A stretch of DNA of 64,000 nucleotides from Trachythela sp. YZ-2020 (taxonomy: Eukaryota; Cnidaria; Anthozoa; Malacalcyonacea; Clavulariidae). Below, piece after piece: positions 3,000-50,320 of the stretch. The stretch covers positions 4,273,501-4,337,500 of the forward strand of contig JADLSH010000355.1 in assembly GCA_016169945.1 (NCBI GenBank), read 5' to 3'. The notes under the pieces are model-generated. The model had not been told where the DNA came from. It saw nothing but the letters and a program-made list of their open reading frames with translations, and searched no databases. Numbering within the stretch: position 1 is the stretch's first letter; each line of letters opens with the position of its first letter. Position numbers and translations under genes: made by a program.

Positions 3000-3034
3000 A
3001 TCATTATATTCTGAAAGACTAATTATAAACAAAC

Positions 3035-3050
3035 GGCTCTTTTAAGAGCC
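3035..3050 (+). terminator. Histone 3' stem-loop processing signal
   Basis: GGCTCTTTTAAGAGCC is a 6-bp stem with a 4-base loop, followed by ACCA. It is the canonical stem-loop-binding-protein site that sets the 3' end of replication-dependent histone mRNAs. Confidence 0.95.
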
Positions 3051-11936: not shown

Positions 11937-14900
11937 TTACATAAACATGTCGTCTTCAAAGCCGGGAGGTCGCAAGTGATCTGGACCAGGTCTGTAACGA
12001 AAGTACGAATATTCTATTAGCACCCTTTGGACACTGTTCGCACGATCCGAAATTCCATTTGTCCGATTCTCTTCTCGACGTATGTGATTTACTGACAAGA
12101 GTCTATAGATGGTTTTTCACGTGACGTCATCAAAATTCTAAAATCTAAATTATAAATCCTATAAAGCTGGTCGTTATATATGTTTTGCAGATCGTTGTTG
12201 TGAGTTTTTGTCGAAAAGTTTAGGTTGATACGACCATTCCTTCTAGAGTTATAGAGTTTTGAATTTTGGCAATGCTGACGTCAGCGCATTTTCAAAGGTC
12301 GCGGAAAGCGATTTCTTTCACACAATTCGACGTCTTAGGCTTGGTTAAGCTTTAAATGTGATATCTAAGTCATTTTGTGTATAAATCTAACCATTTTGAT
12401 TAAAATTCGGTTTTCTTCGGGCCTTAGTATTTTGGCCGCCATGTTGGTGTACCAAAGTGGTACACCAACACAGGGATGGATCCAGCTTGATTTGATAGGG
12501 GGGGTGCTAAGCGGGCTTTGGTCATGAAGCAGGGCGTGGTCGGCGACAGAGGAAGGGTGAATCACCACTGAGGACCCCCTACAGTGTCAAGGGGGTTATC
12601 TTGTCAGAAATGTTTTGAAAAATAAGATGGCCTAGATGGTCAAAAAGGCCCATCAATGGCCCAATATTATATTTTTGTTTGATAAATGTCCTTGTTTGAT
12701 AAATGCCCTGATAAATGCCATATCAAATCCAAAATTTGGATTTGATATGGGAATTGGCACCCCTCCTGCACTCCCCTTAGCCAAGGCTAGGGGGGGGTGC
12801 GCACCCCCCCAGTAAATCCATCCCTGCACCAACATGGCGTCCCCGTACTAATCACTAGTAATCAAGCAAACATTTGACATTTTAATTTCCCCACAGTTCA
12901 GCCACCAAAAAATGCTATCGCTCCCAAATTTTGGCTCTAGGTATATTTTTGCCTGCTCTATGCAAAACATAGAAAATATTACACTAAAATAATAAGCTGG
13001 AAAAAAAGCCGTGACGTCAGTGAAAACGATCTATTGGTTCATACCTTGGCGGAAAGTGTAGTTGTCGCTGTATTGCGTGAAATCACATACGTCAGGAGGA
13101 GAATCGGACCGATCGCGGATATCCCTAGTAATAAGACTAGCTATATAGACTTGTAAATCTAAAGTCTCCCACTATATCGCAACTTATGAAATGCATGAAT
13201 AATCAATGGGGCACCCAATAAAATTTCAAAGATTAGCTCACTTGTACACACTTGTTTGCATATGAATTGAGTCATTACAATATTACTCATCAGTAGAATC
13301 ATACTAGTATACTATTGCAAATGCTGTAATTTGATTGGCTACGCTACTCGCTATCTAATCGTCGATAGATAGCGAGTAGCGAAACAGCCATCTCCTCGGC
13401 GCGATTTTTAACGAATTTATTTCAATAAATTATGAAAAACGTTTTGAAATACTGTTTTCTTGCTGATTTCAACTAAAACAATTAGATTATTCGCTCTCGA
13501 TTTCTATGAGATGATAGTTCATTCGGGCTTCGCACGACATCAACTATCACCACATAGAAATCTTGAGCTCATAATCTAATTGTTAATTAGTTCTGTCTGA
13601 GAGATTACAAAGAAACTACAATAAATGAAAAACAACAGGCTTTACATATGCCGGACCTAATTTTTTTGCATAAAGCCAGACAAAAACATGGATAATGAGT
13701 TCTAATGTATTTTCATTGAGCTTCCTAACCTTGTATTCTACTGACTATGCTTGGAGCAAGTCTAAAGTCGGTTTTCCACCAGGCGAATTCATTCGCGTGA
13801 AGCGACATTTTTCTTTGTCGGCATTGCGTATCACGTCAGCAAAAACGAAGACGCCGACAGAGGAAAAAGTAGATTCGCGCGAACAAATTCGCTTGGTCAA
13901 AAAACGGGCTTAACTATTAATAGGATCCGTAGCGCAATTTAACGAGGGAGGCTGTCCAATTTCCTCTAAGGTCAAAGCCACAAAACCTCGACTTCAAAGG
14001 AACACAACAGATCATTAGAATAATAATGGCGGTTGATTGCCATGTAGCGTCCACTCAATAACATCCGTCAGAAAGAGAAAATATGAAAAAAAACTTACCC
14101 GCTAAATCTACCAGACCGAGGATTGCCGCCCATACCACCATCTGGGGGAACTGGGCCGAATGGATCGAATCTCGCTCCGGGAGGTACCGCTCCTCTGACA
14201 ATAGAAAAGGAGAAGATTTTCTACATATTTTCACAACGGTTGTGGATATGGGTCTAAATCATCCTCGTACCCAGGTTGGGTCTATATGTCTAAACCTCGA
14301 GGAAATTAACTTTTATAACGACGCAACACCAAATGTATAACATTAGTAATAATATAGATGAAAAAATTACTCAATTCTGATTGGCTAGGAGCAGTGCAAT
14401 TATTTTTTGAAATTGCACACTGTGCAATTACAGCAGTGCAAATTAACAAAACAAGATCAGAGCCTGGAAACGAGGCAAGAAAAATCAACATGGCGGCGGA
14501 TATTAGCGATGTAAATTTTCACTTTTTGACGACTTTTTCTACACTTTCAATGGAAAATCGTATATGTGAATACAACAATTTAAGTTCAAGGAGCACATAG
14601 ACTGAAAAAGTGTGCTAACAAGCAACGAGAACAATGCTTAAACGGCGTAGGTGAGTGCACAAGTGTTATCAAAGCGTGTAATTTTTTCATGTATATTAAT
14701 AATTAACAATTAGACAACGAGGCCGAGTTGGCTATGAGCGAATAGTCAACGAGGCGAAGCCGAGTTGACTATTCGCTCATAACAAAGACAGTTAATTGTT
14801 TTAGTATAAACTATAGCATTTATTGAGAACTAGGGAACACAATACAAAAGTAAACAAAAGTATTAATATTAATTTTAAACGTGAATTTTCACCCCATTGT

Positions 14901-17900: not shown

Positions 17901-20900
17901 TAAAACAAGAACGTTGTTCAATCACGGTCTCTTTATACTCTCATATTTATATGGCGTTGTCGACTGCCGCGTCGTCGTAGATCTTAACTTAAGGTCCCTA
18001 ATATTTATCTACAACGCGTCAAGTAAGTTTTACTAAGCAAATTATACACAATTCTAGTAAGATGGCGTTTGTGGATGGAATACTCGAACGAAAATTTACA
18101 TAATATCGAATATTCATCCACAAACACCATCAACTATATTATTTCCATCGAAGGAGATGCCGAGAAAAATTAGTATTTACCCATATACAATATACTGGCA
18201 TCCCTCCCATATATATACCGAACTTGCGGTTAATGTTCAGCAACTGGACTCTGTAGCTCAGTTGGTTCAAGCGCTGCATCAGAATCGCAGGGCCGCAGGT
18301 TCGATTCCTGCCAGAGGACCTAAGGTTGCATTTTTCGCAACTGCTCCTGGCTAGGTCTCAAAATTGATATAAATTTGTCAACTATTATTCCCATCGAACG
18401 AGATGCCGAGAAAAATCTTTGCTGTTTACACCACTTTAACAAAAGACACTGGCAGATAGTATTGTTAACCCATTAACTGGCAGTACCCTAGCTGCAAGCT
18501 AATGGGTTAACTTATTGTATGTGCGGTGCCAGTGTGGGTAGAGTGTAGCAAATATTCGGCGGTTGACTGTTGTGTAATACTACCTGAAAAATAAAATAAG
18601 AACTTCGACGTTTCGAGCGAAGGCCCTTCGCTCGAAACGTCGAAGTTCTTATTGTATTTTTCAGGTAGTTTTACACAACAGTCAACCGCCGAATAACTTA
18701 CTGTACATTGCAAGAATCAAACCAGCCACCATGACTAGTACACTCAACTTACTGTGGATAGTCATAGAGGTTCCGTAAGAGTTGCTCGTTGTCTGCAGTA
18801 ACATAATCAGTCGTGTCAATGGTCAGATCATAACTTGCCTCCTTTTCTATATCCTGATAATAGATAGTTACCATAATTTACAATGCTCCCAATTTGAAGG
18901 TTCGACTGTACACGTTTTACATAATTGTATTGGTTATTGCACTAGCTTAACTAAATATACAATTTAGTCCAAAAAGATCAAATAGAGGTTTGGCAGATGG
19001 TAGATGGATGCCACTATGCCACTATATACTGATTTTAAAATCCAACCTAAGTTTTTCGTGTTAAATTTGGAAAACACGTAGGTTTTAACGACATTTGAAA
19101 ATAACGCTGACGTCAGCAAAAATTGTATCGACTTGAAATTTGTTATGAATACTTGTTATAATGACATGTTAACAGCCAGTTTTATAGGTTGCATGTTAAA
19201 GATCTTAGAATTTAATCATATAGTCAGATAATGGCCACAACATCAGTGGCGTAGGAACCAGGGGGGCAGGGGGCATGCCCCCCCCCCAAGTTTTCTTCAA
19301 AGTGCCCTTTTCTCCAGCTAAAACAATGGAAAAAGTGCCCTTTTCTAATAGAAGAGGTGCCCTTAAGAAAAGTGCCCCTCCCCCAACTTGAAGTTGCTTC
19401 CTACGCCTATGCACAACATACTGCACACCATACAATTTCTGTTCACCATTATTGAATTTGCTAATTGGAGTGGACATCCATTCATTATGAACATCCAAAC
19501 CTGACAAACAGAGTGACACAAGCTGAGTTTTTAAGAGACACTATTGAGAAATGCAAGCATCAATTGTCAATTAGTATTCCTTTTAAAAACAGCATATAGG
19601 CCACAGACAATTCAGGCTTGCTTTGGAGGGTACTGATAATGTACAAGGCCAAAAATCTTGGGGAGCGGGTAATTTTGAATCAGTGTTCCTGACAAAATAT
19701 CTTTTGGGTCTTATGGATCAACAAGAACTTCAACATGACTAACTACAGTGCAGCTTCCACTAACTTCCAGACGAAGGGCCTTCGCTTGAAACGTCGAAGT
19801 TCTTGTTGAATATTTCAGGTAGTTTGAACCTAAAGACCCGGAGCTTATTGCATACATGCTACCTACACTGGCACCGTGCATTTTTGAAAAAAATGCTGAA
19901 ACGTTTCTTGTGAACAACAACGTCAAGTAGTTTGCCAAGAATATAGAGTATTACAAGATGTAACTAACCAGTAGATGAACGGCAAGCCTAGTTTCCAGGC
20001 GTAAAATTTTAAGCAGAAACTTTCTCTGATATGAACTTGGTTGTTTGTACTGTATAGCGTAAAAGTCTGGTGAGCCATTCCATCCTTGAGGTAAACCTTC
20101 AGTTGAAATATTGCCGGCAGACTCAGAGACCTAAAAACAGATAAATATGAGGATATATCAGACATTATGAGGCATTTTCTTTCGAAGCAGAAGAGTATGT
20201 AGTAAAGGGCGATTAAGGAGTGATAGACCCAAAAAAATCATTAAATATTTATTTAAATATTGACTGGTTAGTTTTCAACCAACAAGCCAAGGCGAACTGT
20301 CCCAAAGTCCCCAGAATTACCCAAAGTCACCACCAATGAGAATGACTCACTGACAATAACATGCAAGTAGTAATTAAAGCTCTGTTCAAATGAGGCTAAT
20401 ATCATCCAACATTGTTGGTCCAGACAATTTGCACAATGTTGGATGAAAATTTTAAACAAAGTCAAACCCGATCCAACATCTTCCAACATTAGCCAACAGC
20501 ATATCCAACAATGTTCGATGATGTTGGACCAAAATTGCTCAACTAGTTTGAAGGGGCTGACTAGTTTGAAGGGTCCCATCCAGTGGCGTAACGTTATATC
20601 AGGGTGCCCCCCCTAGTATGGCCCCTCTAGTACGAATGCCGAAGGCACAAGCTCGGGGGCATGCCCTAGAGTCTCTGAAATTCCATTTCCTGGCCTTTGG
20701 GGGAAGATTTTACAGAATTCTGATGGTCAGAAAATGACATTTTAACATAACAAAATTTACAATTTGTTTTGGCCCCCGGACAACTCAGGTCAGAGTGCCC
20801 CCCTGGAAACCCAATCACCTAGGTGCCCCCGGCTCTTACCGGGTAGAGCTCATAGGAGTTACGCCACTGGCCCCAACCACAAGCATGTATCCGGATTCGT

Positions 20901-22309
20901 TTGTATCTGCAAATATTTTGTTGAGGATTCAAAAAGTTACACGTCCACACCTTCGATACAAATACTTTAGAAATGCTTACAGAGCATGCGCTATCAAACT
21001 CAGTTTGGACTGAAAGTATACTGTTATGATTCTTTTTTAAAGAAAAATAGGAAACACTATTTACAAATTAATTGCGTACATTGACTTTCACACAAACAAT
21101 ATTAAATTCAAGTTAGGAAAAGCGATTAGACTCTATAATGAGTCAGTTAGATTGGAAAGAAAGAGCTGGATTCCCATATAAAAACCATTGCAAACTAGAC
21201 TGTCTTGATACATTAACCATCTTACACCAAGTGTCCGTGCAGGAAAAGCAAGAAGAGTAATACGCGATGCAGAAAATTGGTCACAATCAAACAAGTAAAT
21301 AATGTGCAAGTTCAGTCTCTTTTGCAAAGCCACAAGAGCAAGCTGGAATGGTACACAATTCATCTTAAACAAATGATAATTAAGTGCACTATTACCTACT
21401 ACCTAGTTGTAATCTAGTCTGAAGTACAGCAGCTTGGCGATTTCCAACAAAATAGAGTCTATTTGAATCTGGATTGTTGCGCCAAGCTAAAACATTTCTT
21501 TTGAAGGAGTCAGATAATCGAACATCATTAGGCAAATTGTTCCAAAGCTTAGTAGATGATACAATAAAATAATTTTTATAATGTTCAGTTCGTACATGAT
21601 TTATTTATAGCGTGAGTGGATCTCAAATCTCATTCAGTTTAGGTCATTGTTTTCAAAAAGTTCCGGTTACAGTGTGTCCACATGTGTCTGGATACATTGC
21701 ATTTTCAAAAGTTTCCACTCTCAAAAGTTTCCACTCTGGAGACCATTTTCAAAAGTCTGCAGTTACATTTGTATGTGAACGGAGGGCATATATGCGACAA
21801 AATGTTCGCAGACACGAACTTATTCGGATACTTGTGGAGTGTGGATGGGACTTTAATGGCTTATACATCGATATGGTTAGTTTTATATCCCTAAGCTGCA
21901 ATATCGAGATAAATCAGGGTTAACTTTCAGTTTCACTTTTAATACCACGACTCCACAATTCATTAAGAACCTGCCATAAATTCTGTTTGTAAATTATAGA
22001 GCATTTAAAATTTCAAATGCTTAGTTCGTTCCGACACTGAAGAGTATAAAACAAATTCATAGCGTGTACAATGCAGTACAAATGCCAGTATAATAATTTA
22101 CACAAATCATACAAAAATATTCAAGTATAAAAACAGCTTATTTATACGGACACTGTAAAAATTACAGACGTAAAGCAAACCTCTTCTCCAATTCCTATAC
22201 ATTTATACCCAGCCTCTATCAAGAATGAATGAATGGCAACAACAAGAGCATCGTGTCCGTCTTTTACACCACAAAATGGCAAGGTATTTGCAAATCTTTC
22301 TTTCGTCAT
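11937..22309 (-). CDS. PSMF1: Proteasome inhibitor/adaptor PI31, nine exons
   Basis: Exons in transcription order: 22309-22181, 20130-19969, 18853-18753, 17475-17359, 16554-16474, 15410-15348, 15243-15163, 14194-14099 and 11991-11937. All have GT-AG ends, all phases agree, and they give 294 residues (human 271). PI31 binds the 20S proteasome and the Fbxo7 adaptor. The N-terminal FP domain (about 1-140) includes DGHDALVVAIHSF, LPQGWNGSPDFYAIQY and YDLTIDTTDYV. The C-terminal half is Pro/Gly-rich with DPLRIPPRFPQTSR, PPGARFDPFGP and PDHLRPPGFEDDMFM. The C-terminal HbYX tail that enters proteasome pockets reads MFM, with Phe where vertebrates have Tyr. The start is the first ATG in frame with the FP domain. 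It is preceded by, and overlaps, a three-codon upstream ORF (ATG GCG TCA TGA). Introns carry many mobile elements. Confidence 0.95.
12104..13035. mobile_element. MITE with GACGTCA termini, carrying a nested hAT element
   Basis: Inverted ends (ATAGATGGTTTTTCACGTGA at the left; the right end inverted reads ATAGATCGTTTTCACTGACG) bound a roughly 930-bp element in the last PSMF1 intron. It is interrupted by the hAT-like insertion at 12471-12826. No transposase is encoded. Confidence 0.7.
12471..12826 (-). mobile_element. hAT-like MITE with 8-bp target duplication
   Basis: The element runs CAGGGATGGAT...CCATCCCTG and is flanked on both sides by CACCAACA (12463-12470 and 12827-12834), an exact 8-bp duplication typical of the hAT superfamily. 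It belongs to the same family as the copies at 22606-22924 and 25723-26028, in reverse orientation. Its internal open frame (IYWGGA...) is shared by the family but has no recognised domain. Confidence 0.88.
13330..13590. mobile_element. MITE family copy (also at 27143-27410 and 29208-29475)
   Basis: About 260 bp starting near ATTGGCTACGCTACTCGC and ending near the AATCTAATTGTTAA border. It has an internal hairpin (TCGCTATCTA / TAGATAGCGA) and a second inverted pair (AACTATCA motifs). Reverse-oriented copies lie in both units of the tandem duplication at 26-30 kb. Confidence 0.7.
14690..15134. mobile_element. Cluster of fold-back MITEs in PSMF1 intron 7
   Basis: At 14700-14800 an inverted pair (GAGCGAATAGTCAACGAGGC and its complement) forms a hairpin. 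A second independent fold-back spans 15005-15134, with arms TAATAGTATGGTTTC... repeated inversely at the far end. Neither codes for a protein. Exon 7 of PSMF1 begins just beyond. Confidence 0.65.
15872..16264. repeat. Hexanucleotide (TATTTG)n array with variant units
   Basis: About 390 bp of 6-mers (TATTTG, CATTTG), periodically broken by TAAATGTG. The order of variants gives a higher-order pattern. All three reverse frames stay open over the array, giving false Gln/Ile/Thr-rich reading frames. It lies in PSMF1 intron 5. Confidence 0.95.
17635..18000. mobile_element. MITE with long GC-rich inverted ends in PSMF1 intron 3
   Basis: The left end TAGGGAGCTTAAGATCTACA and the inverted right end TAGGGACCTTAAGTTAAGAT continue as imperfect arms of about 45 bp with CGACGACGCGG motifs. 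The element is about 366 bp with no coding sequence. Confidence 0.75.
18240..18390 (+). mobile_element. tRNA-derived SINE
   Basis: The head GGACTCTGTAGCTCAGTTGG carries an A-box, and GGTTCGATTCC carries a B-box (18298-18308). The tail reads TTGCATTTTTCGCAACTGCT, then TCCTGGCTAGGTCT. Related copies are at 27866-28000 (+) and 63835-63994 (-), with tail-only fragments elsewhere. The anticodon arm lacks U33, so it is not a functional tRNA gene. Near-identical GAGATGCCGAGAAAAAT blocks flank it (ends near 18173 and 18417). Confidence 0.85.
18553..18694. repeat. Near-perfect 142-bp fold-back hairpin
   Basis: The two arms of about 68-70 bp are almost exact inverse copies meeting at CGAAGGCCCTTCG. 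The outer ends are ATTCGGCGGTTGACTGTTGT and its complement. The inner part is the GAAACGTCGAAGTTCTT family, also seen at 4290, 19770, 36240 and 55560-55700. Confidence 0.9.
19770..19850. repeat. Single-arm copy of the GAAACGTCGAAG repeat family
   Basis: It contains GAAGGGCCTTCG, GAAACGTCGAAGTTCTTG and the AAAGACCCGGAGCTTATTG border. It lies in PSMF1 intron 2, just 3' (on the gene strand) of exon 2. Confidence 0.6.
20395..20560. repeat. TGTTGGA-rich MITE
   Basis: It contains repeated, mutually inverted ATCCAACATTG / AATGTTGGA motifs, bordered by CTCTGTTCAAATGAGGC and TAGTTTGAAGGG. A related element is at 53755-53925. Confidence 0.6.
21130..21560 (-). mobile_element. 3' end of a degenerate LINE (non-LTR retrotransposon)
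   Basis: The minus-strand translation shows KLWNNLPNDVRLSDSFKRNV followed by RQAAVLQTRLQLG. After frame changes it shows PACSCGFAKETELAHYLL, a C-x-C...H pattern. This is the conserved tail downstream of reverse transcriptase in many LINEs. Several stops and shifts make it inactive. Confidence 0.65.
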
Positions 22310-22605
22310 GACGCCATGTTTTATTTTTATTTTGCACTCGAAACTTCATATAAGCGCCATGAACGGGTCATAAACTGAAGTACCGTGACGTACCGGTGAT
22401 GTCACTGTGGTGACATTCTCTTTCAGGAAAACTTGAAGCCAAGATGGCGGCAATTGGCGTACATGTCCTTGTAGACAGATATGAACTATTTTTCTGATTG
22501 GCTGATAAATTTAGGTGTCTCTCGTCCCGCTAGCTACTCATGTTGCAATCTCGTTCCCAGAGTATGCCCGTTCGCAGGTTAGGTAGTGGCATGCCCACTA
22601 CCCAA
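22310..22605. promoter_or_regulatory. 5' flank of PSMF1 with a palindrome
   Basis: This is the upstream region of PSMF1 (minus strand), with no TATA box. 22545-22604 holds TATGCCCGTTCGCAGGTTAG and GTAGTGGCATGCCCACTAC. This palindrome marks the axis of an inverted duplication whose other arm starts at 26037 with CCTGCGAACGGGCATACTCT. The axis is split by the insertion of 22606-26036. Confidence 0.55.
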
Positions 22606-22924
22606 CAGGGATGGATTTACTGGGGGGGTGCAGGGGGGTGCGCACCCCTCCTAGCCTTGGCCAAGGGGGGTGCAGGAGGGGTGCCAATTCCCATATCAAA
22701 TCCAAATTTTGGATTTGACAGGGCATTTATCAAACAAAAATATAACATTGGACCATTAATGGGCCTTTTTGACCATCTAGGCAGTCTTATTTTTCAAAAA
22801 CTTTCTGGCAAGATAACTCCCTTGACCCTATAAGGGGTCCTCAGTGGTGATTCACCCTTCCTCGGTCACCAACCACGCCCTGCTTAGCGCCTCCCCCTAT
22901 CAAATCAAGCTGGATCCATCCCTG
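22606..22924 (+). mobile_element. hAT-like MITE, left copy flanking the inserted segment
   Basis: It starts CAGGGATGGATTTACTGGGG and ends GGATCCATCCCTG. Left flank is CTACCCAA (22598-22605) and right flank is TGTTTAAA (22925-22932), so its own flanks do not match. They match those of the partner copy at 25723-26028 in reverse order. Confidence 0.88.
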
Positions 22925-22979
22925 TGTTTAAAAGCAGCGCTTTAGCTTCATTCATTCAAATATTTTGATGACAACAATT

Positions 22980-23110
22980 GAAGACAATTGGTCGCCAAGA
23001 AGCAGCTGGATCCTTCGACTTGAAAAGATTGGGTTGGATATGTGATGGCCACAAAATGGAAATATAGTTGATTATGGTGTAATCTGTTTGTTTTAGAGTG
23101 GCGATAATCG
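22980..23110 (+). pseudogene. Fragment of a second copy of the small membrane-protein gene (intron 2/exon 3 border)
   Basis: CTTGAAAAGATTGGGTTGGA, then GTAATCTGTTTGTTTTAGAG, matches 24297-24375, the sequence leading into exon 3 of the intact gene (24373). Similarity stops just inside the exon, so it is a broken relic. Confidence 0.65.
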
Positions 23111-23469
23111 GCATGCCAGTCAAGTGGGCATTATAAGCTCATTATATATATATATCAGGGTTTGTACAGGCATGTAATATGTGTGATATTTTAGTAGAAG
23201 TTTACGTTTGTTCTGTCTGGAGAATGTGGTAAAAACAAAATACTCATTGTTTGGTCTTGTGCTAAACATTGATGTTTTTAATTTCTACTAAAATTTTTAT
23301 GTCAGATACGAAGATGTTGTTTTCCTGCTACTGAAAATGAGACCGACTTAAACCGTTTTGTAAATCGGTGAGAAAATAATGACGTAATCTCATCACAGTG
23401 GCTTGGGGCGAGAGATACTTAATTAAGACGTCATCGCTAATTAAATCATAGTCAATTGTTCGAAGAACA

Positions 23470-24827
23470 ATGAAGTCGTGCGAGTTTTTGCTCGCGATCG
23501 TGGTCGTTTTAGCTATATTTGATGGATGTGTGGGTAAGGCAATGAATTTGACCAATATACAGGGAAACAACAAATAGAAAAATAGATTAATAGTAAAGAA
23601 AACAAAAATGAATATTCTTTTTAATAGCTGTGTCAGTGAAAGACAATACGAAGTCCTCAGACGAAACTGAAGACGAATGCACCGTCTGGTATAAATGTAC
23701 CGGTAAGTCGATAATTGTTTTGTGGAAAACACGGCGTTTTCAATTTGGCAAAGCATTCAATTCTTAATTCCGGATCTGTTTCAGTGCAAATGATATCGCA
23801 TTCCTCTTTATTACTGGTAATGTTCTGCGCATATGTTTTGCGCACCTGTGACTTGCGCACCAATGGTCTGCGGGTCTGCCAGTGCGCGGATTCTAATATC
23901 GCGCGAATTCTAATACTTGGGCGAATTTAAATATAAGTATAAGGTAACAGCATTCCTATGTCCCTACGGCAGCACTTCCCTATCGAGGGTAACTCCTGTT
24001 CGCGTCATTAGAAAGATAATTAGTTAGAAAGTTAATTAGACCGCTAATTAGAAATTTAATTGGATTAGTTACGTCATTATGCAGTTCTAATTAACGTGCG
24101 CAAGAAATTGACTTTCTTGACTTGACTGGATATTACCACGCGTACCGCTCAAACGAGTCAAAACTCTCATCAACTCTCATCAAAATTGGAACCAGCTCGA
24201 TATTGATGAGAGTTGATGAGAGTTGGAAATCAAACGCGAGCGAGAGTCGCAACCTGGGCTTTAAGCAAGATAAAGTTTAGGTATCAAAAGCAGACTTGAA
24301 AAGCTTGGGTTGGATATGTGACGGCGACAGAACCAAAATATGGTTGATTATGTTGTAATCTGCTTGTTTTAGAGCGGTGGTTCGTAAAGTTTTTCAGAGG
24401 TTTTCAGAAACCAACATTCTCACATGGTATTTTTCTTGGCGTTCCAGTTGGAATGATGAGCACGTTTATTATTCGTGTGATTATTAATATCATTGTCAGG
24501 TGAGATATTGTTTGCTGTTTTCAACTTTTTGTTTGTTTTTCTCCCTCCCTCCCTGCCTCCCCCCCTCCACTAAACCCCAACCTTCACTAAACCCCAACCT
24601 GTTTTTTTTCTCAATACTATAGGGTCTGCTGCATTCATTGTTTTAAAAGAAAAAGCGTGAAAAAACCCGACGATGTTAAGTGCTCGCCCAGGAACAGCTG
24701 GGTCCACGTGGATATACCAACCATTAACAAGAACGAAATCCGCAAATCATTGAGTGAAGGATCAGTGTGCATCACTGTCAATGACATTCCAGAAGTCAAT
24801 GCTTCTAGGAGTTGTTCCTGGCCATAA
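23470..24827 (+). CDS. Small single-pass membrane protein, four exons, family unknown
   Basis: Exons are 23470-23533, 23628-23702, 24373-24499 and 24623-24827. All are GT-AG with phases 1, 1 and 2 that agree, giving 156 residues. Residues 1-21 form a signal peptide (MKSCEFLLAIVVVLAIFDGC). A short acidic ectodomain follows, with a CTVWYKC motif and Asp/Glu/Lys/Ser. A transmembrane helix (GIFLGVPVGMMSTFIIRVII, about residues 65-87) is followed by a Cys/Lys-rich juxtamembrane part (RVCCIHCFKRKSVKK) and a roughly 55-residue cytoplasmic tail. The topology is type I (ectodomain outside) if the signal peptide is cleaved. I recognise no family. Fragments of a second copy flank it, and the whole segment sits between two hAT-like elements. 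Confidence 0.8.
24120..24250. repeat. TGAGAGTTGATGAGAGTT repeat
   Basis: Inverted ACTCTCATCAACTCTCATCA and TTGATGAGAGTTGATGAGAG flank a short spacer in intron 2. Related sequence is at 40880-41060 and 60355-60560, each in an intron of another gene. Confidence 0.65.
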
Positions 24828-25160
24828 CTACATGAACAAACACTATCACTGTATATTTTCCTCTAATTTCCATATCGTACATTATAAGTATTACCGTAAT
24901 CTCATATTAATCCCCCCTCTCCAATAAGCCCCGTCTGTATTAAGTCCTCACTCCCCAATAAGCCCCCTCAAATAAGTATCCTTCGAATAGGTATGCATGT
25001 CCCCCCCCCGGGTGACTTTATATAAGATTTACGGTATGTCGAAAAATATAAATAACTCTATGTGTAAACTATGTATTACAATGTTTTACTTCAATACGCA
25101 CATCGCGTATAACAAACCTCGCGTGTATTATTTTTCGTATCAAGCTTTTGGCCAGCAAAT

Positions 25161-25320
25161 TAGTGTCAAACCGTCCAGAACGTATTATAGATCAGTTGGA
25201 AAACAATGACGTAATCTCATCGAAGTGGACCGGGGCGAGAGATACCGAATTACGTCACTAATTAAGTCATGCTTAATGAAGTCGTGCGTGTTTCTTCGAA
25301 ACTCTTCGTGATCTTGACAC
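25161..25320 (+). pseudogene. Promoter and exon 1 relic of a second membrane-protein gene copy
   Basis: GTAATCTCATCGAAGTGGAC, GAGATACCGAATTACGTCAC and then ATGAAGTCGTGCGTGTTTCT (from 25278) match the upstream region and first codons of the intact gene at 23380-23490. The reading frame is lost within a few codons. Confidence 0.7.
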
Positions 25321-25395
25321 AGATTAGATATATTAAATATAATATAATCTGTGTTCTTGGTGTTTTTAATGCCAGAGAGGGCAGTGTCCGCATTA

Positions 25396-25607
25396 AGGTC
25401 TGATTCTACGAGTGTTTTTTCTCAGCGAAATGCGAAAAATTTCGCACGAAATGAATTCGCGAGAAAAAATTTCGCTTCGCCAGTGAGTAAAAGTTAGTTC
25501 TACTCACTGCGAAAAAAGTGGAGAAATTGAATAAAATCACTGATGTGCAGCCATCCGTATTCTGCAGACACAATTTCTCGCGAATAATTTCGCCGTGGAA
25601 TCAGGCC
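25396..25607. mobile_element. MITE with GGCCTGATTCCACG-type ends
   Basis: The left end GGTCTGATTCTACGAG mirrors the right end CGTGGAATCAGGCC. Internal AAATTTCGC motifs are inverted. It is about 210 bp and non-coding. Confidence 0.7.
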
Positions 25608-25722
25608 TTGATGGCTTGTGTTTCAATAGCCATTGCCTTCACCGGGTAAGGGTGTGTGTCTGCTTTGAAAACTGTGAATTTAAAGGTAATAAGATGAATC
25701 TAAACTATTGCTCTTGTTTAAA

Positions 25723-26028
25723 CCGGGATGGATTTACTGGGGGGTGCGTACCCCTTCTAGCCTTGGCCAAGGGGGGTGCAGGAGGGGTGCCAATTCCCAT
25801 ATCAAATCCAAATTTTGGATTTGACAGGGCATTTATCAAACAAAAATATAATATTGGGCCATTGATGGGCCTTTTTGACCATCTAGGCAGTCTTATTTTT
25901 CTAAACATTTCTGGCAAGATAACTCCCTTGACCCTATAGGAGGTGCTCAGTGGTGATTCACCCTTCCTCGGTCACCGACCACGCCGTGCTTAGCACCCCC
26001 CTTTCAAATCAAGCTGGATCCATTCCTA
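25723..26028 (+). mobile_element. hAT-like MITE, right copy flanking the inserted segment
   Basis: This is the same family and orientation as 22606-22924. Left flank is TGTTTAAA (25715-25722) and right flank is CTACCCAA (26029-26036), the exact reverse arrangement of the left copy. The terminal bases are slightly mutated (CCGGGATGG...CCATTCCTA). Confidence 0.88.
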
Positions 26029-26375
26029 CTACCCAACCTGCGAACGGGCATACTCTGGGAACGAGATTGCTCATGGTGTTGAATATATCAAAGATATCAA
26101 ATATCCCGAACAGAATAAAAATTGCATATATTAACTTATTTAACTATTATTTATTCACGAAATGTTTTGTAAATTTCAGGAAATATTAATGTTTGAAACT
26201 GAAACAGAGTATCAAAACGAGTCTTCCCAAGAACGAATTGGAAGAGTTATCAATCTGAAGACTGAAATGTTAAAGCTATTTCGCGCTCATGCAAATTTTG
26301 GAAGCTTTTGAACGCATGGTTTAACACTGTCGCTTCTTTCCGAGTTTATGGAATGTGCAAAATCATCACAAGGCG

Positions 26376-26498
26376 AAAGAAAGATTTGCAAATACCTTGC
26401 CATTTTGTGGTGTAAAAGACGGACACGATGCACTTGTTGTTGCCATTCATTCATTCTTGATAGAGGCTGGGTATAAATGTATAGGAATTGGGGAAAAG
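26376..26498 (+). pseudogene. Duplicated PSMF1 exon 1, copy 1
   Basis: It encodes KERFANTLPFCGVKDGHDAL and onward to GIGEK, followed by the same GTTTGCTTTACGTCTGTAAT intron start as real exon 1 (22309-22181). It is on the opposite strand. The original ATGACG is changed to AGGCG, so the PSMF1 start codon is lost. No exon 2 follows. It is a genomic duplication, not a retrocopy. Confidence 0.88.
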
Positions 26499-27142
26499 GT
26501 TTGCTTTACGTCTGTAATATAAAACAGGACGTAAATCTATAATTATGGTTATAGTCGATCCTATTACAGAATCATCATCAGACCAACGGTTTTACATATA
26601 GATATAAGCGCTCATTATATATGTATAAGAAAAGCTAAAAATTGACAGATGTATTACACAGATTACAAGGGTGAAGTAAATCTAAGATATATATACTCTA
26701 CCCACACTGGCACCGCACGTTATAAGATATATCAGTATGATTGATGTCAGTGCAAGGCCCATATCTGATTTGAGCGAGCATATATTCTTTTTATACCGGT
26801 ACATTTAATCATAGGCATAGCTAGTCATATGGATTCCTCTTCACTTGCGCAATCTTATTCGGTCAGTGTTTGAACTGATCTTCACTCTTGCCTCCAGTCA
26901 GCTCTTCATCAATTAATTAACCTCTGAAATCAGTGCTAATTGGGAATAATTGCCACAAGAATTAATTATATACTACAGTATTAACAGAACAAATAGAGTT
27001 GGATTTCGAAGAATATAAACATAAGTATTAATTCCCACGATTATTCAAACGAATATTTAAAATTTACAATCATTATCCTTAAGTCACGGCCACTGAACTT
27101 AACGCCGGTTTTGTATGTCTTCAAGTCAGTTTTATCCGACTA

Positions 27143-27410
27143 TTTAACAATTAGATTATGAGCTCAAGATTACTATGAGGTGATAGTTGATGAGGGCGAA
27201 GCCCGAATGAACTATCAACTCATAGAAATCGAGAGCGAATAATCTAATTGTTTTAGTAGAAACCAGAAAGAAAACAGTATTTCAAAACGTTTTTCATAAT
27301 TTATTGAAATAAATTCGTTAAAAATCGCGCCGAGGAGATGGCTGTTTCGCTACCCGCTATCTATCGACAATTAGATAGCGAGTAGCGTAGCCAATCAAAT
27401 TACAGCATTT
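27143..27410. mobile_element. Reverse copy of the 13330 MITE family
   Basis: It matches 13330-13590 in inverse orientation, including GCGCCGAGGAGATGGCTGTT. The duplicate at 29208-29475 came with the tandem duplication. Confidence 0.7.
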
Positions 27411-27865
27411 GCAATAGTATACTAGTATGATTCTACTAACACGAAATAGAAAGAATTCACCCAGTATAGAACCTTCGACGCGTGAGTTAACTTCGAGCCA
27501 AGTAGTTATAAACTTAAGTGCAAACACTTGCTGGACGTCAGTGAACAGTGACGTGCATATATGCAATGAATGACGGAAAATAACGGTAAAAATATCACGG
27601 AAATTTTTGTGCAATACTCAAATTTCGCGACGTTATACCAATTATAAATTTTCATACCGTCGTTGGCATCTAAAGATATTAAACAGTCACAGATTAAAAT
27701 CATTGTACATGCCAAAGCATTGGTCCAACATGGCAACATCATCCAACAATGTTGAAGTACTTGGTTCAACGCTGGAGCACACTACATATATTGAATCTGC
27801 GGCCCTACAACAACCCGCAGTACCCGCATCTATATATATACATGAACTTGTGGTTAACGCTTGGC

Positions 27866-28000
27866 AACTGGACTCTGTAGCTCAGTGGTCAGAGCGCTGC
27901 ACCGGAATCGCAGGGCCGCAGATTCAATTCCTGTCGGAGGACTTAGAGTTGCATTTTTCGCAGCCGTTCCCGTTCAGGTCTAAAATATTGTATATAATAT
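27866..28000 (+). mobile_element. tRNA-derived SINE, second copy
   Basis: GGACTCTGTAGCTCAGTGGT with a B-box-like GATTCAATTCC, then TTGCATTTTTCGCAGCCGTT and the CAGGTCT tail. It lies between the two tandem units. Confidence 0.8.
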
Positions 28001-28099
28001 TTCACTCGAAATGTCCATCCACTTAAACCTTCTACATCAATTTCAATCGAGTGAGATGCAGAAAAAAACAACTTATAGTTTGCAAGTGGCATGCCCACT

Positions 28100-29830
28100 A
28101 CCTAACCTGCGAACGGGCATACTCTGGGAACGAGATTGCTCATGGTGTTGAATATATCAAAGATATCAAATATCCCGAACAGAATAAAAATTGCATATAT
28201 TAACTTATTTAACTATTATCTATTCACGAAATGTTTTGTAAATTTCAGGAAATATTAATGTTTGAAACTGAAACAGAGTATCAAAACGAGTCTTCCAAAG
28301 AACGAATTGGAAGAGTTATCAATCTGAAGACTGAAATGTTAAAGCTATTTCGCGCTCATGCAAATTTTGGAAGCTTTTGAACGCATGGTTTATCGCTTCT
28401 TTCCGAGTTTATGGAATGTGCAAAATCATCACAAGGCGAAAGAAAGATTTGCAAATACCTTGCCATTTTGTGGTGTAAAAGACGGACACGATGCACTTGT
28501 TGTTGCCATTCATTCATTCTTGATAGAGGCTGGGTATAAATGTATAGGAATTGGGGAAAAGGTTTGCTTTACATCTGTAATATAAAACAGGACGTAAATC
28601 TATAATTATGGTTATAGTCGATCCTATTACAGAATCATCATCAGACCAACGGTTTTACATATATCAGATATAAGCGCTCATTATATATGTATAAGAAAAG
28701 CTAAAAATTGACAGATGTATTACACAGATTACAAGGGTGAAGTAAATCTAAGATATATATACTCTACCCACACTGGCACCGCACGTTCTAAGATATATCA
28801 GTATGATAGATGTCAGTGCAAGACCCATATCTGATTTGAGCGAGCATATATTCTTTTTATACCGGTACATTTAATCATAGACATAGCTAGTCATATGGAT
28901 TCCTCTTCACTTGCGCAATCTTATTCGGTCAGTGTTTGAACTGATCATCACTCTTGCCTCCAGCCAGCTCTTCATCAATTAATTAACCTCTGAAATCAGT
29001 GCTAATTGGGAATAATTGCTATAAGAATTAATTATATACTACAGTATTAACATAACAAATAGAATTGGATTCCGAAGAACATAAATATAAGTATTAATTC
29101 CCACGATTATTCAAACGATTATTTAAAATTTACAATCATTATCCTTAAGTCACGGCCACTGAACTTAATTGACGCCGGTTTGGTATGTCTTCAAGTCAGC
29201 TTTATCCGACTATTTAACAATTAGATTATGAGCTCAAGATTACTATGAGGTGATAGTTGATGAGGGCGAAGCCCGAATGAACTATCAACTCATAGAAATC
29301 GAGAGCGAATAATCTAATTGTTTTAGTAGAAACCAGAAAGAAAACAGTATTTCAAAACGTTTTTCATAATTTATTGAAATAAATTCGTTAAAAATCGCGC
29401 CGAGGAGATGGCTGTTTCGCTACCCGCTATCTATCGACAATTAGATAGCGAGTAGCGTAGCCAATCAAACCACAGCATTTGCAATAGTATACTAGTATGA
29501 TTCTACTAACACGAAATAGAAAGAATTCACCCAGTATAGAACCTTCGACGCGTGAGTTAACTTCGAGCCAAGTAGTTATAAACTTAAGTGCACACACTTG
29601 CTGGAGGTAAGTGAACAGTGACGTGCATGCAATATCACGGAAATTTTTGTGCAATACTCAAATTTCGCGACGTTATACCAATTATAGATTTTCATACCGT
29701 CGTTGGCATCTAAAGATATTAAACAGTCACAGATTAAAATAATTGTACATGCCAAAGCATTGGTCCAACATGGCAACATCATCCAACAATGTTGAAGTAC
29801 TTGGTTCAACGCTGGAGCACACTACATATA
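28100..29830. repeat. Tandem duplication, unit 2
   Basis: This is the direct repeat of 26037-27835. Its final part (29030-29830) is also homologous to 44180-44640, so this block is present three times in the window. Confidence 0.85.
28439..28561 (+). pseudogene. Duplicated PSMF1 exon 1, copy 2
   Basis: This is a second tandem copy of the FP-domain exon, nearly identical to the one at 26376-26498 and again without the ATG. Here the frame stays open back to an ATG at 28358, so a short 75-residue product is formally possible, but no downstream PSMF1 exon is present. Confidence 0.88.
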
Positions 29831-30905
29831 GACTTTGCAATTGACCTGTTTTTGTCTCGGACGGCAAATCGTCGAAAACATAGCTGCATGCACGCACATC
29901 ATTATACATCAATGCCGTTTTGTAAGCAACCACTTGCCAAACGATCCAATATTAACTGAGTATCTGACGTTATTGAAGGCCTTCTTCCGCCAAGAATACG
30001 ATGTCTGTTTCATTGTTAAAAGAATCGGGCCACGTTTTGGTTTTTAGGGTCCGGTTTATGTTTTGTCGTTTTGGATTAAGAACGATTTTAGAGTATTATC
30101 TTAGGAGATCCTCTTCTAGGTAAATAGATTTAAGTTTCATACAATATAGATAGTCATAATCTGATCTGCACTCATATCCATCCTTCACACCATCTAACAA
30201 TTATTTTGCAAATGTCTTAATTATATAGTTAAAGACCAGAATTTCAATTTGGAGAGATTTAAAAAATTAGCAATTTAGCCAACTGTATCAACATGGTATT
30301 TCAGATGCTGATAGTATAGTCTAGATGGTGTTTCGTAGATGGAATACTCGAACGAAAATTTATATACATTTTTATAGACCTAACCAGGAGCATGCAGTGA
30401 CCGCAATATTGTTGTGTTTGTTTACGGGCCTTAGGATATATATTTTATCTCTGACTGTTCATTCTTAGATCCCCACGACGGTAGGAAGCTTACAGAAATC
30501 TATAAGGGAGCTCGCACAATATCCACTTGTCTATGTGCATATTTGCTCCTATAGGCTATAACCATATTTTTTTCCAATATTGTAACCATAAAATAATGTG
30601 AAATGAAATGTGAAGTACAAGTGCATCCATCCTACTTTATATATATTGACTATTGTGTTGTTTTCGGCATATATATATATAACGATTCGAAGGTTGTTAA
30701 TTGTAGCTTCACCTTCGGCTGGGAGGGTTCTACGCCATCATACAAACATAGACCCGTCTGGTTGTGCATGCGGGCTCCTGTGGTTACACCGCAACGTATA
30801 TTAGAATCTTGCACGAACATTTACATACATGATATTTTTGGGGATTTTACCGATATTTTCCGTTAAAAATATACGTCACTGTTCAGTTAACTCGTGCGTT
30901 TAAAA
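29550..30905. mobile_element. Long-inverted-repeat element, first arm of the large duplication
   Basis: The left end has GTGAGTTAACTTCGAGCCAA, GTGAACAGTGACGT, CGGAAATTTTTGTGCAA and ATACCGTCGTTGG. The right end has CCACGACGGTAGG, TTGCACGAACATTTAC, CGTCACTGTTCAG and TTAACTCGTGCG in inverse order. Arms are a few hundred bp, and no transposase frame is visible. The counterpart is at 44347-46240. Confidence 0.55.
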
Positions 30906-32506
30906 GCCGCGGCTACAAGGTTAATTACTATGCGCGATAGACCTCTAGACTATAATAGACAAAACCGTTGAGTTCAGTGACCGTGACTTATTATGGGATT
31001 ATAAGACCATGTTACGAGTCACGAATATTTCTCTTTGATCTTGACCCCAATCCCGACCCAATTCCTAACCCTATTCTGTGCGTGGCATGAACTTAGAGCC
31101 TATTATGGATAATGATTGTACAGTCAGGTGTATTATATTGGTGTTATAAGGCAATAACGAAAACGTTGACGAGTGATGTAAAATTGTCCGTAAAGTTGTC
31201 CTTATGTCCATGGCATAGGATGGAAAATATGAGACGACAGAGGGAAATTAAAATTCGGCCCAGAAAATCAGACTGCTGTTTGCTGCTATGAAACTATAAA
31301 TAGTAGCCCATGCTAAGTAAAATTGTACCCACAAATGCCAGGAACTAATAACGAACGTACTACAGCAAATCAACAACAGTGAAATTGGGCTTAATATATT
31401 TCGATTTTAATTCACACGAGTGAGATAAGCAGCATAAGGAAATACAAAAGGTAAAAAAAAGGGATGCAGTGAAGTGCAGTGCCAATTAATTTACAAATCC
31501 TTATATAGTTGTTAGTACTAGCTCATAGCCATGTATTCGTTATTCACCTTTGTGACCGCGGGGTTTGAATGTCGCTTCTTCGCAGAACAGACCCAACATT
31601 GTTGGCTTGACACCATCTAACAATTTTCAAAAAGTCTAAATCTAAGTAAGGACATGTACTGTCCATATATAAGGGTTTATCGCCCCATGGTCAGGTTAAG
31701 GACGGTCCATAGGGGTTTAGTCTCATTGGTCAGGTTAAGGATCGTCCGCCGGAGTGTTTCTTAGCCGTTCAGGTTCGTCAGGGACTGGCTATATACCCTT
31801 GGCAAGGCTCTGCAACATGGTACAGAGCATTCAGTTCAGAATCAGTGCTGCAGCTTAGAGTGTATGATGTTTGTCATAATATATAGTTTTCACACCCCAG
31901 AACCCCTTCTCCCACCAATATATGTTGTGTTTGAATTGTGTTTTATGAAAATGATTTTATATCAACAGCTAGGGTAATTAATAAATCTTATCAAATTATT
32001 AGAGAGATTTGAAAAATTAATAGTTAAGTCATGCATGCAATATTTCAACGACAACATTGTTAGATAGTGTTGGACCAATATTGTTGCGTCTGTTTACGGA
32101 GTTTAAGCATATATATACATGCAATGATTTTTCAGTATCTGTGATTGTTCATTCTTAGATCTTAACGACGGTATGAAACGTATAAATTTTAATCTTGCAC
32201 AAACATTTACAATGATATTTTTAGTGAATATTTTACCGTTATTTTCCGTTAAACATGGGCGTAACTCTTCACTGAGAGACAAGTGTTTACACTTAAGATG
32301 AAAGCTACTTGGTTGAAAATTAACCCGTGCGTTCAAAACCAAGCTACATGGTTAACCCTGTAGTTAGTAATGAAAGCAAAATTACAATGGCTCTTTATTC
32401 ATAACCAGCGCACTAACCGCCCTCACATCCTGTTCTTGAAATTGCCGTTGATATGTTGATTAATCTAAGTGACAATGTCACTTTACGTCACGCACAAGTC
32501 CACAGC
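30905..32506. other. Intergenic repeat-derived sequence, no gene
   Basis: This is homologous in blocks to 46.2-49.1 kb. 32100-32350 holds another end of the long-inverted-repeat family (AACGACGGTATGAAAC, TTTTCCGTTAAAC). Open frames here are not conserved between the two duplication arms. Confidence 0.55.
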
Positions 32507-32509
32507 TAA

Positions 32510-32905
32510 GGCCCCGTCACATGAGACCGGGACGAAGTCAAACCGGGACGATTTCGTTTCGGTCATAGTATTATTTATAATAGATGTTTACATGAGACCG
32601 GGACGAAAAATTGCTCAGACCGGTCTGAAGTCATCCCGCTCGCTGGACCGAACCGACTATCTTCAGACCGGGACGAATTCAGAGTGGGATGAATGTAAAC
32701 ACAAATTATTTTCAGACCGGTCTGAATTTTGATACAATGCTGATAATAAACAACGGTGGACAATTAACAGCATCAATTGTGGAATGCACATTTGATAGAC
32801 GCAATAAAGTGTGTAATGCTTTTCGTACCGGTCTCATGTAAACCTACTGACAATTTCAATTTTCATCCCGTTCTGACTTCATCCTGGTCTCATGTAAACG
32901 GGGCC
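32510..32905. mobile_element. PIF/Harbinger-like MITE with TAA target duplication and an empty site
   Basis: The ends are GGCCCCGTCACATGAGACC and CATGTAAACGGGGCC, flanked by TAA on both sides (32507-32509, 32906-32908). The other duplication arm has the uninterrupted site with one TAA (near 49090: CCGCAGGTAACACGC). Internal copies of GACCGGGACGAA form subterminal repeats. Confidence 0.9.
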
Positions 32906-33289
32906 TAACACGCAATTAAAATGCAAAGCCTAGTGCTTTTATCCACGGACAATCGATATCAGATGAATATCGATTTACAGAGGAAGCGTGCACATGTTTC
33001 CCACGGTTGTTCAACATTAATTAAAAGTTTGTTTAAAGAGTAATTGAGTCTTGTCAGTTTTGTAAGAAAACAGAGAGTACTTAATACTTATTACAGACAA
33101 TATGGGCTGTAATAATTTTTTCACTGATGCATGCAACTTGTGACTGACCAGACAGCGGAATAATTATAAGAAATAGTAATACATTGACACACACAGTAAT
33201 AAGCAGACGGAATGCATCGTGTGTAGTTCATTGTTATCCCAATGTTCTGAATAGACAATTTCTGAAGATAACTTCACAACCTCGTTCCA

Positions 33290-33640
33290 AAGCGAACGTC
33301 CTTCCACTAGAATTCCGCCGAGAGATCTCCGACCTGCTGCTAATTTTCAAATCCAACACCGGACTAATATCCGTATGGATGTCAAACCTATGATCCAGGC
33401 TATAAATCACGACGCAATTGACGATGAAAACAATTTCAACTTTCTGATAAAACATAAACATGACTACTTTAGGAATTCGTTTTACATAAGGTCGGCAAAT
33501 CTGTGGAACAGTCTTCCATCTGACCTGAAATCTCAGAACGACTCTAGTATATCCATATTCAGAACCAGTCTGCATAAATTATATAATGCTAAATTACCAT
33601 CATACAGCCCTCCTGGCTGTACTTAACTTTATACTATATA
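33290..33640 (+). mobile_element. 3' end of a LINE
   Basis: The frame from 33375 reads HDYFRNSFYIRSANLWNSLP then SISIFRTSLHKLYNAKL and stop. This is the conserved C-terminus found after reverse transcriptase in many LINEs. Upstream RT is missing (5' truncation). It is absent from the corresponding site of the other duplication arm, so it inserted after, or was lost following, the duplication. Confidence 0.7.
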
Positions 33641-34032
33641 GTTTATAGCTATTAGTTTAAATATTTGTACTAATTGATAGGGGCATAGGGGTAAGGTGTC
33701 AATTGCACGCAAGTCCTGTTCCTTCCTCCAGTCATGTCCACAGTGTTGCTTGTTTGAACATGTGTAAATTGTGACAAATTATTATTAAGCCTTTTCTGCG
33801 CGGTTTTCCCGCCCCTCATCTTGACTCCGACAGCCTCTTACATGTTTGTGCAAAAAATCTCGAATGCCACTTTAGCATATTGATTAATTCGAGTGGCTTC
33901 TCCGCGTCAACAAGTACGTACATCCGCAGCGCACAATTAGAAATGTCAACAGAAAATAACGGTAAAGTTTCAACGGTCTTGCTTGTCAAGCGTGGGTTAG
34001 CAACAAACATGCATTTTGAATCTAGCGAACAG

Positions 34033-34039
34033 TATAAAA
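34033..34039 (+). promoter_or_regulatory. TATA box of vWA-HYR gene A
   Basis: TATAAAA lies about 130 bases before the start codon, in a block nearly identical to the gene B promoter. Confidence 0.7.
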
Positions 34040-34169
34040 GCAGGGTGACTGCAGTCGTTTGTCATTCGACGAGAGAAGAGCTGGAAAACAGATCTCTTTC
34101 AAGAAGCAAGAGAAGTCGGTGAAATACTCAAGTGAAATATTGAAGACTGAAGTGAAATACTGCATGAAG

Positions 34170-37100
34170 ATGCTGCGGTGGTTGATACTTTTGACGCTGT
34201 TTGTTCATAACAGTTTAGCTTTCAGTCTATATGATGAGATAGATGGTATGTGTTATACTGATAATTATAGATTAATACCTTTGTTTATCTTTCTATTTTG
34301 GCACAAAATTATGGTCAGTGCCTCTTCGGCAGGGGTTCTATTCACTGATCTGAAAACAAGGACTGGATAGTGCATCTGCTATGCATAAATGAAGCCAATG
34401 GCGGCCATATTGGTATGACCATCACAAATCTACTGTGGTGTTGGAGACATGTTAATGGAGAGTGTCTCTGTTCTCGGTTTCTGCTTGTATTGTATTGTAC
34501 TTTGTGTGATGTTTCAGTACTAATCTACTGATGTTTTTGTTCTGTGAGGCAAATCTTGTAAAATAGAATAATATAGGTAAAATCAGAAAATAAATAATAT
34601 AATATTTGCATGGTGTATTCTTTCCCATAACAGATTACAATCTTTGGCAACGCGACGAACCGTCCTCAGAAGAAACGAAACATGAAGATACGAAACCAGG
34701 TATAATATACGTCCGCACACTTAATAACGTCACAACTCCTAATACGTTCCACCATTTTCTTGAATAAATTCAAGCTAACCATACACAGTATACTGAAATG
34801 CAGTGCGGCAGTCAATAGTTTAGCACAAGAGTAAATAGTCGTTTTCCATCAGTGTATGTGTATTTAAATTCATACTATGTATCTCAGCATCGCTTAGTTA
34901 GTTCGCCTCAAACATCAATATTTCGTTTTTATATCATGCTTTTAGTAAGTTTGGGCATCGCGCGCAATTATCGGAATGACAGAATATTGGCAACATTGGA
35001 AGGCATTAGGCGTCAGTGACTAGCTATATATTACGCATCAGTGACCAGCTATATATATCCGGCAGTCGATTATAGATATAGCTATATAGGGCTGACTTTT
35101 CCGCATATAATCTATTATTGTATACAAGAAGTATTTTTGTAAAAGTTTACAATGAGTTTGTTCGTGGATTGCAGATACAGTAATGCCCCGCATAAAAGAA
35201 CCAGTGAATTTTGACTTCAGGCTGAAGTGGTTCTTATAGAACGGGTAGTAAGAAAGAAATCAGGCTGAAGTGGTTCTTAACTGGTTGTTATTTCCAGTCA
35301 AAAACAATTGTTCCTGGTTTGAGAAGTTTAAACCTCTTATTGTATACAATGAAACTATAGTAAATGAACTGTAATTTAACTGTTAATTATATAAACTTTA
35401 TACCCATCAAGTATACTGAGTGAACAGGGCCATCATGATGTAAGTTTTTTTAATATAGTTATGCAAGTTGAATTATGTTGTGAGTTGATTGCTGTTAGCA
35501 AGATTATAGTATTTTGTTTTCTTCCTAGTACCTGCTTACTAATTCAGCTAAAAGTTTAATAAGGTTTCTTAAGAACCAGTTTAATTTGTCAGCCTGAAGT
35601 GGTTCTTGTATTTTGGATGCTTAATTGCCCAAATTTCAGGCTGGTGGTTCTTAACCCATTGGTTCTTTTATGCGGGGCTATACTGTATCTATGACCGCAA
35701 TCAGTAAATTAAAATGCAATGTGCCAAGTTTCCTAAATAACGCGAGTTCTAGACGTACTCCTTGTTGTTCAAGGATTCTAGCGCGATGTAGCTTGTCTTA
35801 TAACTTTTAGTTTTTTTGCGAGATATAACCGAAATAAAATAGGAGCACTTTGATGAAATTCACGATAATGCGGTGAAAAATAGGGAAAATTTAGCATGAC
35901 GAACGCTGTGGTGCCAGTGTATAGGTACCCTTACAAAAATGTCACATATGATGATCTCACAAATGTCACATGTGAGATGTTCCAATTCCACATAATTATG
36001 AAATATATCTTTCACGTGTGGAATATATTTTCACATAATTATGAACCTTTACTTTCACGTGTGAAAGTATATGTGAAACTCGAATTTCACATGTGAAAAT
36101 TCTGAATTTCACATGTGAAATGTGCATTTTCACATGTGAAATGTTCCAATTCCACAAATAATTTCACATGTGAAAATTATATGAGAAATTTTCGTAGTGC
36201 ATGTCTATATACGAAATACTGCGGGACCCACGCTACTAAATTCCAGACGAATGGCTTCGCTCGAAACGTCGAAGTTCTTAATATAATATTGAATATATGT
36301 CAGGTAGATTGATCCAAAAGACCCGTAAAATTTAGCATGACTGAATATTCTCGCGTGACTTCACGAGCCGAATACTGGCTAAAGCAAAATTGATCATACA
36401 GAAATACAATAGACTTTTGTAAATCAAATTAGATAAACTGATAAAAAATTTTATATATAAAGATTTTTATATAAAGTTTCCTATTTGTGAAGCTCATTCC
36501 TGCATCAAATTTAAAAAATTAAATCACATATTCACCATTGTAAATCGTATATACGAACGACTATTGAATGAGAATGCTTATTATAGTTAGAATACACCAA
36601 TACGCTTTCCACTGGTATGAGTCTTATACTTACACTGATATTGCACGAAATATATTGTATTATTATATCAGATGGTCGCATTTACCTTAAAATAATTTGT
36701 TTAGATATTAAGATTAATCACGATCATAATTATACCTGCAAGGTCCCATAACGCCAAATTCATAGTTCAAATGTATGCGATTCTACACTCTCAGTTGGCA
36801 TTTAATATATAGGATATATAGGTATCCAGTAGCCTCATCCGCAGGCAACTCTGTGTTCAACTAATATTTCATAATAACGAAAGATTTCATACAACTGAAA
36901 ACCCGATAAAATACAATGATATAAGACACAATCTCTGTTTCACATTATCTTTCCGGTATTGATCTATTATAGTGTAAATAACATGACGTATACGTAATCC
37001 CTTTTTCACATTTACGACAACAACATTTATAAGAGTATTTTACAGCATATCATTGTATTTTATCGGGTTTTTTGTATGAAATCTTTCGCTATTATAAAAT

Positions 37101-50200: not shown

Positions 50201-50311
50201 TCCGCAGCGCACAATTAGAAATGTCAACGGAAAATAACGGTAAAATTTCCAACGGTCTTGTTTGTCAAGCGTCGGTTAGCGACAAACATGCATTTTGAAT
50301 CTGGCGAACAG
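47285..50311. other. Intergenic, repeat-derived, upstream of gene B
   Basis: Blocks correspond to 31.7-34.0 kb. No exon is supported. A stretch near 48040-48085 has degenerate TTAGGG-like words. The last 150 bp form the gene B promoter. Confidence 0.5.
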
Positions 50312-50320
50312 TATATAAAA
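50312..50320 (+). promoter_or_regulatory. TATA box of vWA-HYR gene B
   Basis: TATATAAAA lies about 130 bases before the gene B start codon, in a block nearly identical to that of gene A (34033-34039). Confidence 0.7.

Follow-up and report, generated by a model that had tools for sequence, protein, structure and literature searches.

Exchanged target duplications at two hAT-like miniatures point to the one-step acquisition of a gene-bearing block in Trachythela

How does a small gene come to lie between two copies of a transposable element whose target duplications appear to have been exchanged? This question is raised by a locus of Trachythela sp. YZ-2020 that we analyzed within 64,000 nucleotides of contig JADLSH010000355.1 (assembly GCA_016169945.1, positions 4,273,501 to 4,337,500), a stretch that we call the window and to which all coordinates refer. 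Two hAT-like miniatures, named L and R, both lie on the plus strand and bracket a cargo of 2,798 bp (Table 1). The joints follow the exact order CTACCCAA-L-TGTTTAAA ... TGTTTAAA-R-CTACCCAA, and all four 8-mers abut the element ends, with 0 extra bases at any of the 4 joints. The exchange of 8-mers between two hAT-like copies, as described in the original prediction, was thus confirmed, both pairs being exact and placed at exact element ends. The probability that two random 8-mers of the window are identical is 3.9e-5, and that of two such matches at fixed positions is about 1.5e-9. Over both strands of the window, CTACCYAA occurs 6 times and TGTTTAAA 12 times, approximately as often as in shuffled sequence.

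Table 1. Positions of the block, its flanks, and the third miniature copy within the window
Feature	Position	Strand	Remarks
Third miniature copy	12471-12826	-	Simple insertion, TGTTGGTG on both sides; internal control
Left flank	22545-22605	+	Target palindrome: left arm, center, and part of right arm; ends in CTACCCAA
Outer target duplication CTACCCAA, copy 1	22598-22605	+	End of left flank
Miniature L	22606-22924	+	319 bp; ends CAGGGATGG...CCATCCCTG
Inner 8-mer TGTTTAAA, copy 1	22925-22932	+	Exact
85-nt repeat	23017-23101	+	87% identity to 24293-24377; "exon-3 relic" of the original prediction
Intact predicted four-exon gene	23470-24827	+	Exons 23470-23533, 23628-23702, 24373-24499, 24623-24827
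Promoter and exon-1 relic of a second gene copy	25157-25334	+	Aligns with 23335-23519; ATG at 25276
Possible nested foldback element	25391-25613	+	Ends AAGG(T/C)CTGATTC...; relic side of cargo; weak inverted alignment
Inner 8-mer TGTTTAAA, copy 2	25715-25722	+	Exact
Miniature R	25723-26028	+	306 bp; altered ends CCGGGATGG...CCATTCCTA
Outer target duplication CTACCCAA, copy 2	26029-26036	+	Exact
Right flank, unit 1 of a tandem duplication	26037-27800	+	Has PI31_Prot_N-like exon
Flank duplication, unit 2	about 28084-29840	+	Uninterrupted paralogous target CTACCTAA at 28098-28105

Terminal inverted repeats of hAT miniatures begin with the consensus CAGGG, and the hAT target consensus is nTnnnnAn. 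Judged by its ends and its 8-bp duplications, the element is a putative hAT-like miniature (MITE). L and the third copy each have the terminal CAGGGATGGAT at their two ends, and R carries altered versions of it at both of its own, the outer right one, TAGGAATGG, being two changes away from the canonical end. The 8-bp duplication is exact for the outer pair and for the third copy. One of the three targets fits the consensus in full, since CTACCCAA agrees with both positions, TGTTTAAA with one, and TGTTGGTG with neither. L and R differ by 18 substitutions over 306 aligned sites, plus indels, whereas the third copy is more distant from both (25/309 from L and 28/306 from R). Three changes in R fall within its 18 terminal bases versus 8 in the other 288 (p 0.02, with a split chosen after the data had been seen), which hints at relaxed constraint or faster change at the ends. 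No transposase was recognized by eye among the 20 ORFs of at least 120 aa in the window, part of which were scanned against Pfam. Words of the miniatures had no match in viral and genome contig collections, nor did L against phages, these collections not being animal genomes.

When the outer flanks are joined, they form a near-perfect palindrome with 29 of 30 arm pairs matched (the test stops at 30), a score equalled by 0.075% of 4,000 random window positions. Each of the two outer 8-mers has a C (CTACCCAA), whereas the opposite palindrome arm (22579-22586, minus strand) and the empty paralogous site both carry a T (CTACCTAA). That the palindrome is restored, and that the C is common to both outer copies against T elsewhere, supports the outer pair as a real target duplication. 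Likewise, the rejoining of the outer flanks as a palindrome and the emptiness of the paralogous site at 28098 place the whole block at a single target. By parsimony, the flank was duplicated first, the T-to-C change then arose in the target of unit 1, and the insertion came last, copying the C to both sides; this order would fall if the other target copies had instead reverted from C to T. An earlier absence of the block from the target is supported by these data, with which an intermediate carrying a single resident miniature at the target stays compatible.

The contiguity of the outer flanks, together with the improbability of the 8-mer matches, also led us to reject two independent insertions of L and R, which are as good as ruled out, in agreement with the original prediction. 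We therefore conclude with high confidence that the 3.4-kb block (22606-26028) is a single acquisition that came as one unit. The existence of two distinct pairs of 8-mers, inner and outer, suggests that one element family inserted on two occasions and, short of chance, the matching inner pair means that the ends of the cargo once flanked one insertion or its duplicates. Such a pair may arise by three routes, namely from a circle with one miniature, from a tandem duplication of miniature and gene, or from re-replication of both flanks of a miniature in the course of alternative transposition. The marks at the joints are compatible both with a jump into the site and with splicing from a DNA circle, the circle route being possible without being the only one.

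Two of the three miniature targets, the outer target and that of the third copy (12400-12900), lie within long palindrome arms. Of 4,000 random positions, 0.1% do as well as the third-copy site and 9.45% as well as the joined donor site, where the palindrome is weak. It is possible that the miniature prefers hairpin-forming targets. Around the block lie three copies of a PI31_Prot_N-like exon, one inverted (22161-22305, minus strand) and two in tandem (26374-26518 and 28437-28581, plus strand), with boundaries near the same palindrome center, GGCATGCC. The two right copies were scanned and gave a Pfam PF11566 match just above the cut-off.

Other duplications and repeats were seen in the window. 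A 3-kb tandem duplication (56381-59394 and 60720-63740, 97% identity) has internal repeats and four copies of an ORF, one of which was scanned and showed an HYR match below the Pfam cut-off; a search with the neighboring HYR-like ORF returned no homologs. Segments 30207-35137 and 45480-52533 are largely colinear, at 74-90% identity, and the window also has vWA ORFs, one of them resembling collagen VI. Dispersed repeats with tRNA-like heads (18209-18376, 27832-28002, and 63838-63999) were called tRNA by Rfam in all three cases and tRNA-Ser by ARAGORN in two, and they are probably a tRNA-derived SINE family. A match to the histone 3' UTR stem-loop (Rfam RF00032) at 3030-3074 suggests a histone gene near the left end of the window.

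The cargo was said to hold a complete membrane-protein gene and the split pieces of a second copy. The first statement agrees with our prediction of an intact gene, in which three introns, all GT-AG, separate the exons. Its 156-aa product, predicted to be a membrane protein, has a hydrophobic start, a second hydrophobic stretch at about residues 65-97, and then a basic tail. A single search with a slightly different version of the protein gave no homologs at E 0.001, a likewise slightly different version matched no Pfam family at E 0.1, and tblastn found no further coding copies of the gene in the window.

The second statement held only in part. The exon-1 relic at the right end of the cargo is supported and reads MKSCVFLRNSS* from 25276, with a stop at codon 12. 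At the left end, what had been taken for an exon-3 relic consists of 80 nt from the 3' end of intron 2 followed by 5 nt of exon 3. When 23102-23330 was compared with exon 3 onward, 3 of 200 shuffles scored as high, which favors a relic; against it, window tiles do as well in 55 of 544 cases, and in 585 of 2,104 when exon 3 is compared by itself, so that an exon-3 relic at this end is not borne out. A possible exon-4 relic at 22986-23013 was discarded, as another place in the window matches better (score 23 versus 19). The sequence lying between the relics does not resemble the intact gene (141 of 200 shuffles did as well). The view of the two relics as halves of one second copy is thus only half supported. 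Since gene pieces repeat within the cargo, a tandem-array donor is suggested, and it is fair to infer that the donor site had a tandem gene family.

The divergence of the two miniatures was then set against that of the duplicated flank, whose units (26037-27800 and 28106-29840) differ by 37 substitutions over 1,728 sites. Per site, L and R have diverged by 0.0588 and the flank units by 0.0214, a 2.7-fold difference (18/306 versus 37/1,728; Fisher p 0.0008) that is also seen outside CpG (14/292 versus 35/1,606; p 0.015). The divergence of the flank is uneven, with 7/794 in the first 800 bp and 30/934 in the rest, and against this more diverged part the L-R difference reaches only p 0.04. The inferred order of events places the insertion after the split of the flank units, although gene conversion between these units may make the insertion look too young. 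As the L-R divergence exceeds that of the older flank duplication, L and R probably differed before they came together here and were already separate copies when they were joined at this site. This argues against both copies having been made here in one step, and it fits circle recombination between two family copies and an old tandem donor alike.

We favor macrotransposition of an older tandem or composite donor, to which we assign a probability of roughly 0.45. By parsimony, the inner pair TGTTTAAA would mark an earlier insertion of the same element family at the donor site, where a miniature would have lain in or beside a small tandem gene family. Duplication of the miniature with its neighbor gene would have yielded two miniatures in the same orientation around the gene, with TGTTTAAA facing inwards. 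A hAT transposase provided in trans could have acted on L at its left end and on R at its right end, and the whole unit would have moved as a macrotransposon in one step to the palindromic site, duplicating CTACCCAA. The donor sequence would be expected to read ...ATTGCTCT-TGTTTAAA-AGCAGCGC..., with or without the miniature. We favor macrotransposition because of the exact nested 8-mers, the palindromic outer flanks, and the C private to both outer copies, and because 8-bp duplication by the family is seen in the third copy, there too in a long palindrome. It is also favored because both macrotransposons and composite insertions are known from the hAT element Ac (PMC4270019, PMC9910405). Tandem duplication followed by macrotransposition requires neither a circle nor a resident copy. 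The block has two elements, compatible outer ends, and a single 8-bp duplication around the unit, the outer end of R being altered; counting against macrotransposition, this altered end may suit the transposase poorly unless its changes came later. No tandem array of MITE and gene that could be the donor was found within the window.

A second reading, possible rather than probable in our judgment, is that a circle carrying the gene and one TGTTTAAA-flanked miniature recombined, through miniature homology, into a resident miniature at CTACCCAA. Such an event yields all four 8-mers exactly, and L and R look like different copies of the family rather than fresh duplicates (see the L-R and flank divergence above). 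Reinsertion of circles has been reported in cattle and yeast and argued for human (PMC7188851). Both the resident copy and the circle are nonetheless unseen, recombination across about 300 bp at about 94% identity is needed, and the L- and R-specific changes do not cluster significantly, as they might in a mosaic (7 runs; permutation p 0.15 against one outgroup copy). The original prediction of a circle was right that a circle explains all four 8-mers, but a tandem or re-replicated donor yields the same four. The fuller account, by which a circle with the small membrane-protein gene and a hAT miniature was captured through a resident miniature inside the palindrome and left the exchanged duplications as its scar, seems unlikely to us.

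A composite insertion made on the spot is much less probable. Here the left end of a miniature and the right end of its sister-chromatid copy would be joined to the target during replication, with the re-replicated flanks (right, then left) fused inside; this single-element sister-chromatid form is an extension of the published model. It gives identical inner duplications from one single element, and in the maize Ac cases donor flanks are switched and fused within an 8-bp outer duplication (PMC4270019). However, L and R would be expected to be identical at insertion, yet they show 2.7 times the divergence of the older flank duplication, and the maize cases begin with a pair of nearby elements. 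Equally little weight goes to the remaining routes: copying of a tandem donor into a broken resident miniature (ectopic gene conversion) gives the same joints at the price of both a tandem donor and a resident copy, and an assembly error is an unlikely source of the C private to the two outer 8-mers and of four element ends joined exactly.

Known systems resemble the block in part. Huang and Dooner reportedly described Ac macrotransposons in maize in 2008, and Durkin is said to have described in 2012 a circle-mediated duplication underlying cattle color-sidedness. Like the maize macrotransposons, the block has two hAT elements in direct orientation, host DNA between them, and an 8-bp duplication outside; it differs in its miniature ends, its animal genome, and its identical inner 8-mers, and it is known from sequence alone. 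Ac composite insertions (PMC4270019) likewise have termini around donor flanks, an outer 8-bp duplication, and a macrotransposon structure. They derive from an Ac/fAc pair, and two of them measure 23,238 and 19,341 bp, whereas the block measures 3.4 kb and has one donor 8-mer; no fusion joint of their kind was identified in the block. Sister chromatid transposition employs directly oriented ends (PMC3744419). With the cattle circle-mediated duplications, the block shares a possible circular permutation of gene content, but its integration would go through homology between miniatures, and its donor order is unseen. No animal case of exchanged hAT duplications was recognizable in the literature searched, although one may be in print.

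Target duplications that are nested and exchanged form a scar for which any genome can be searched, and this scar tells a gene block acquired in one step from one that repeats flank by chance. In the present case it surrounds a small gene that non-coding miniatures carry between them. If the pattern is found again, one could count from it how often genes are moved by miniatures, and subfamily markers in the two copies could distinguish circle capture from macrotransposition. Should the circle reading prove true, high-copy miniatures would be landing pads for gene circles in the animal germline.
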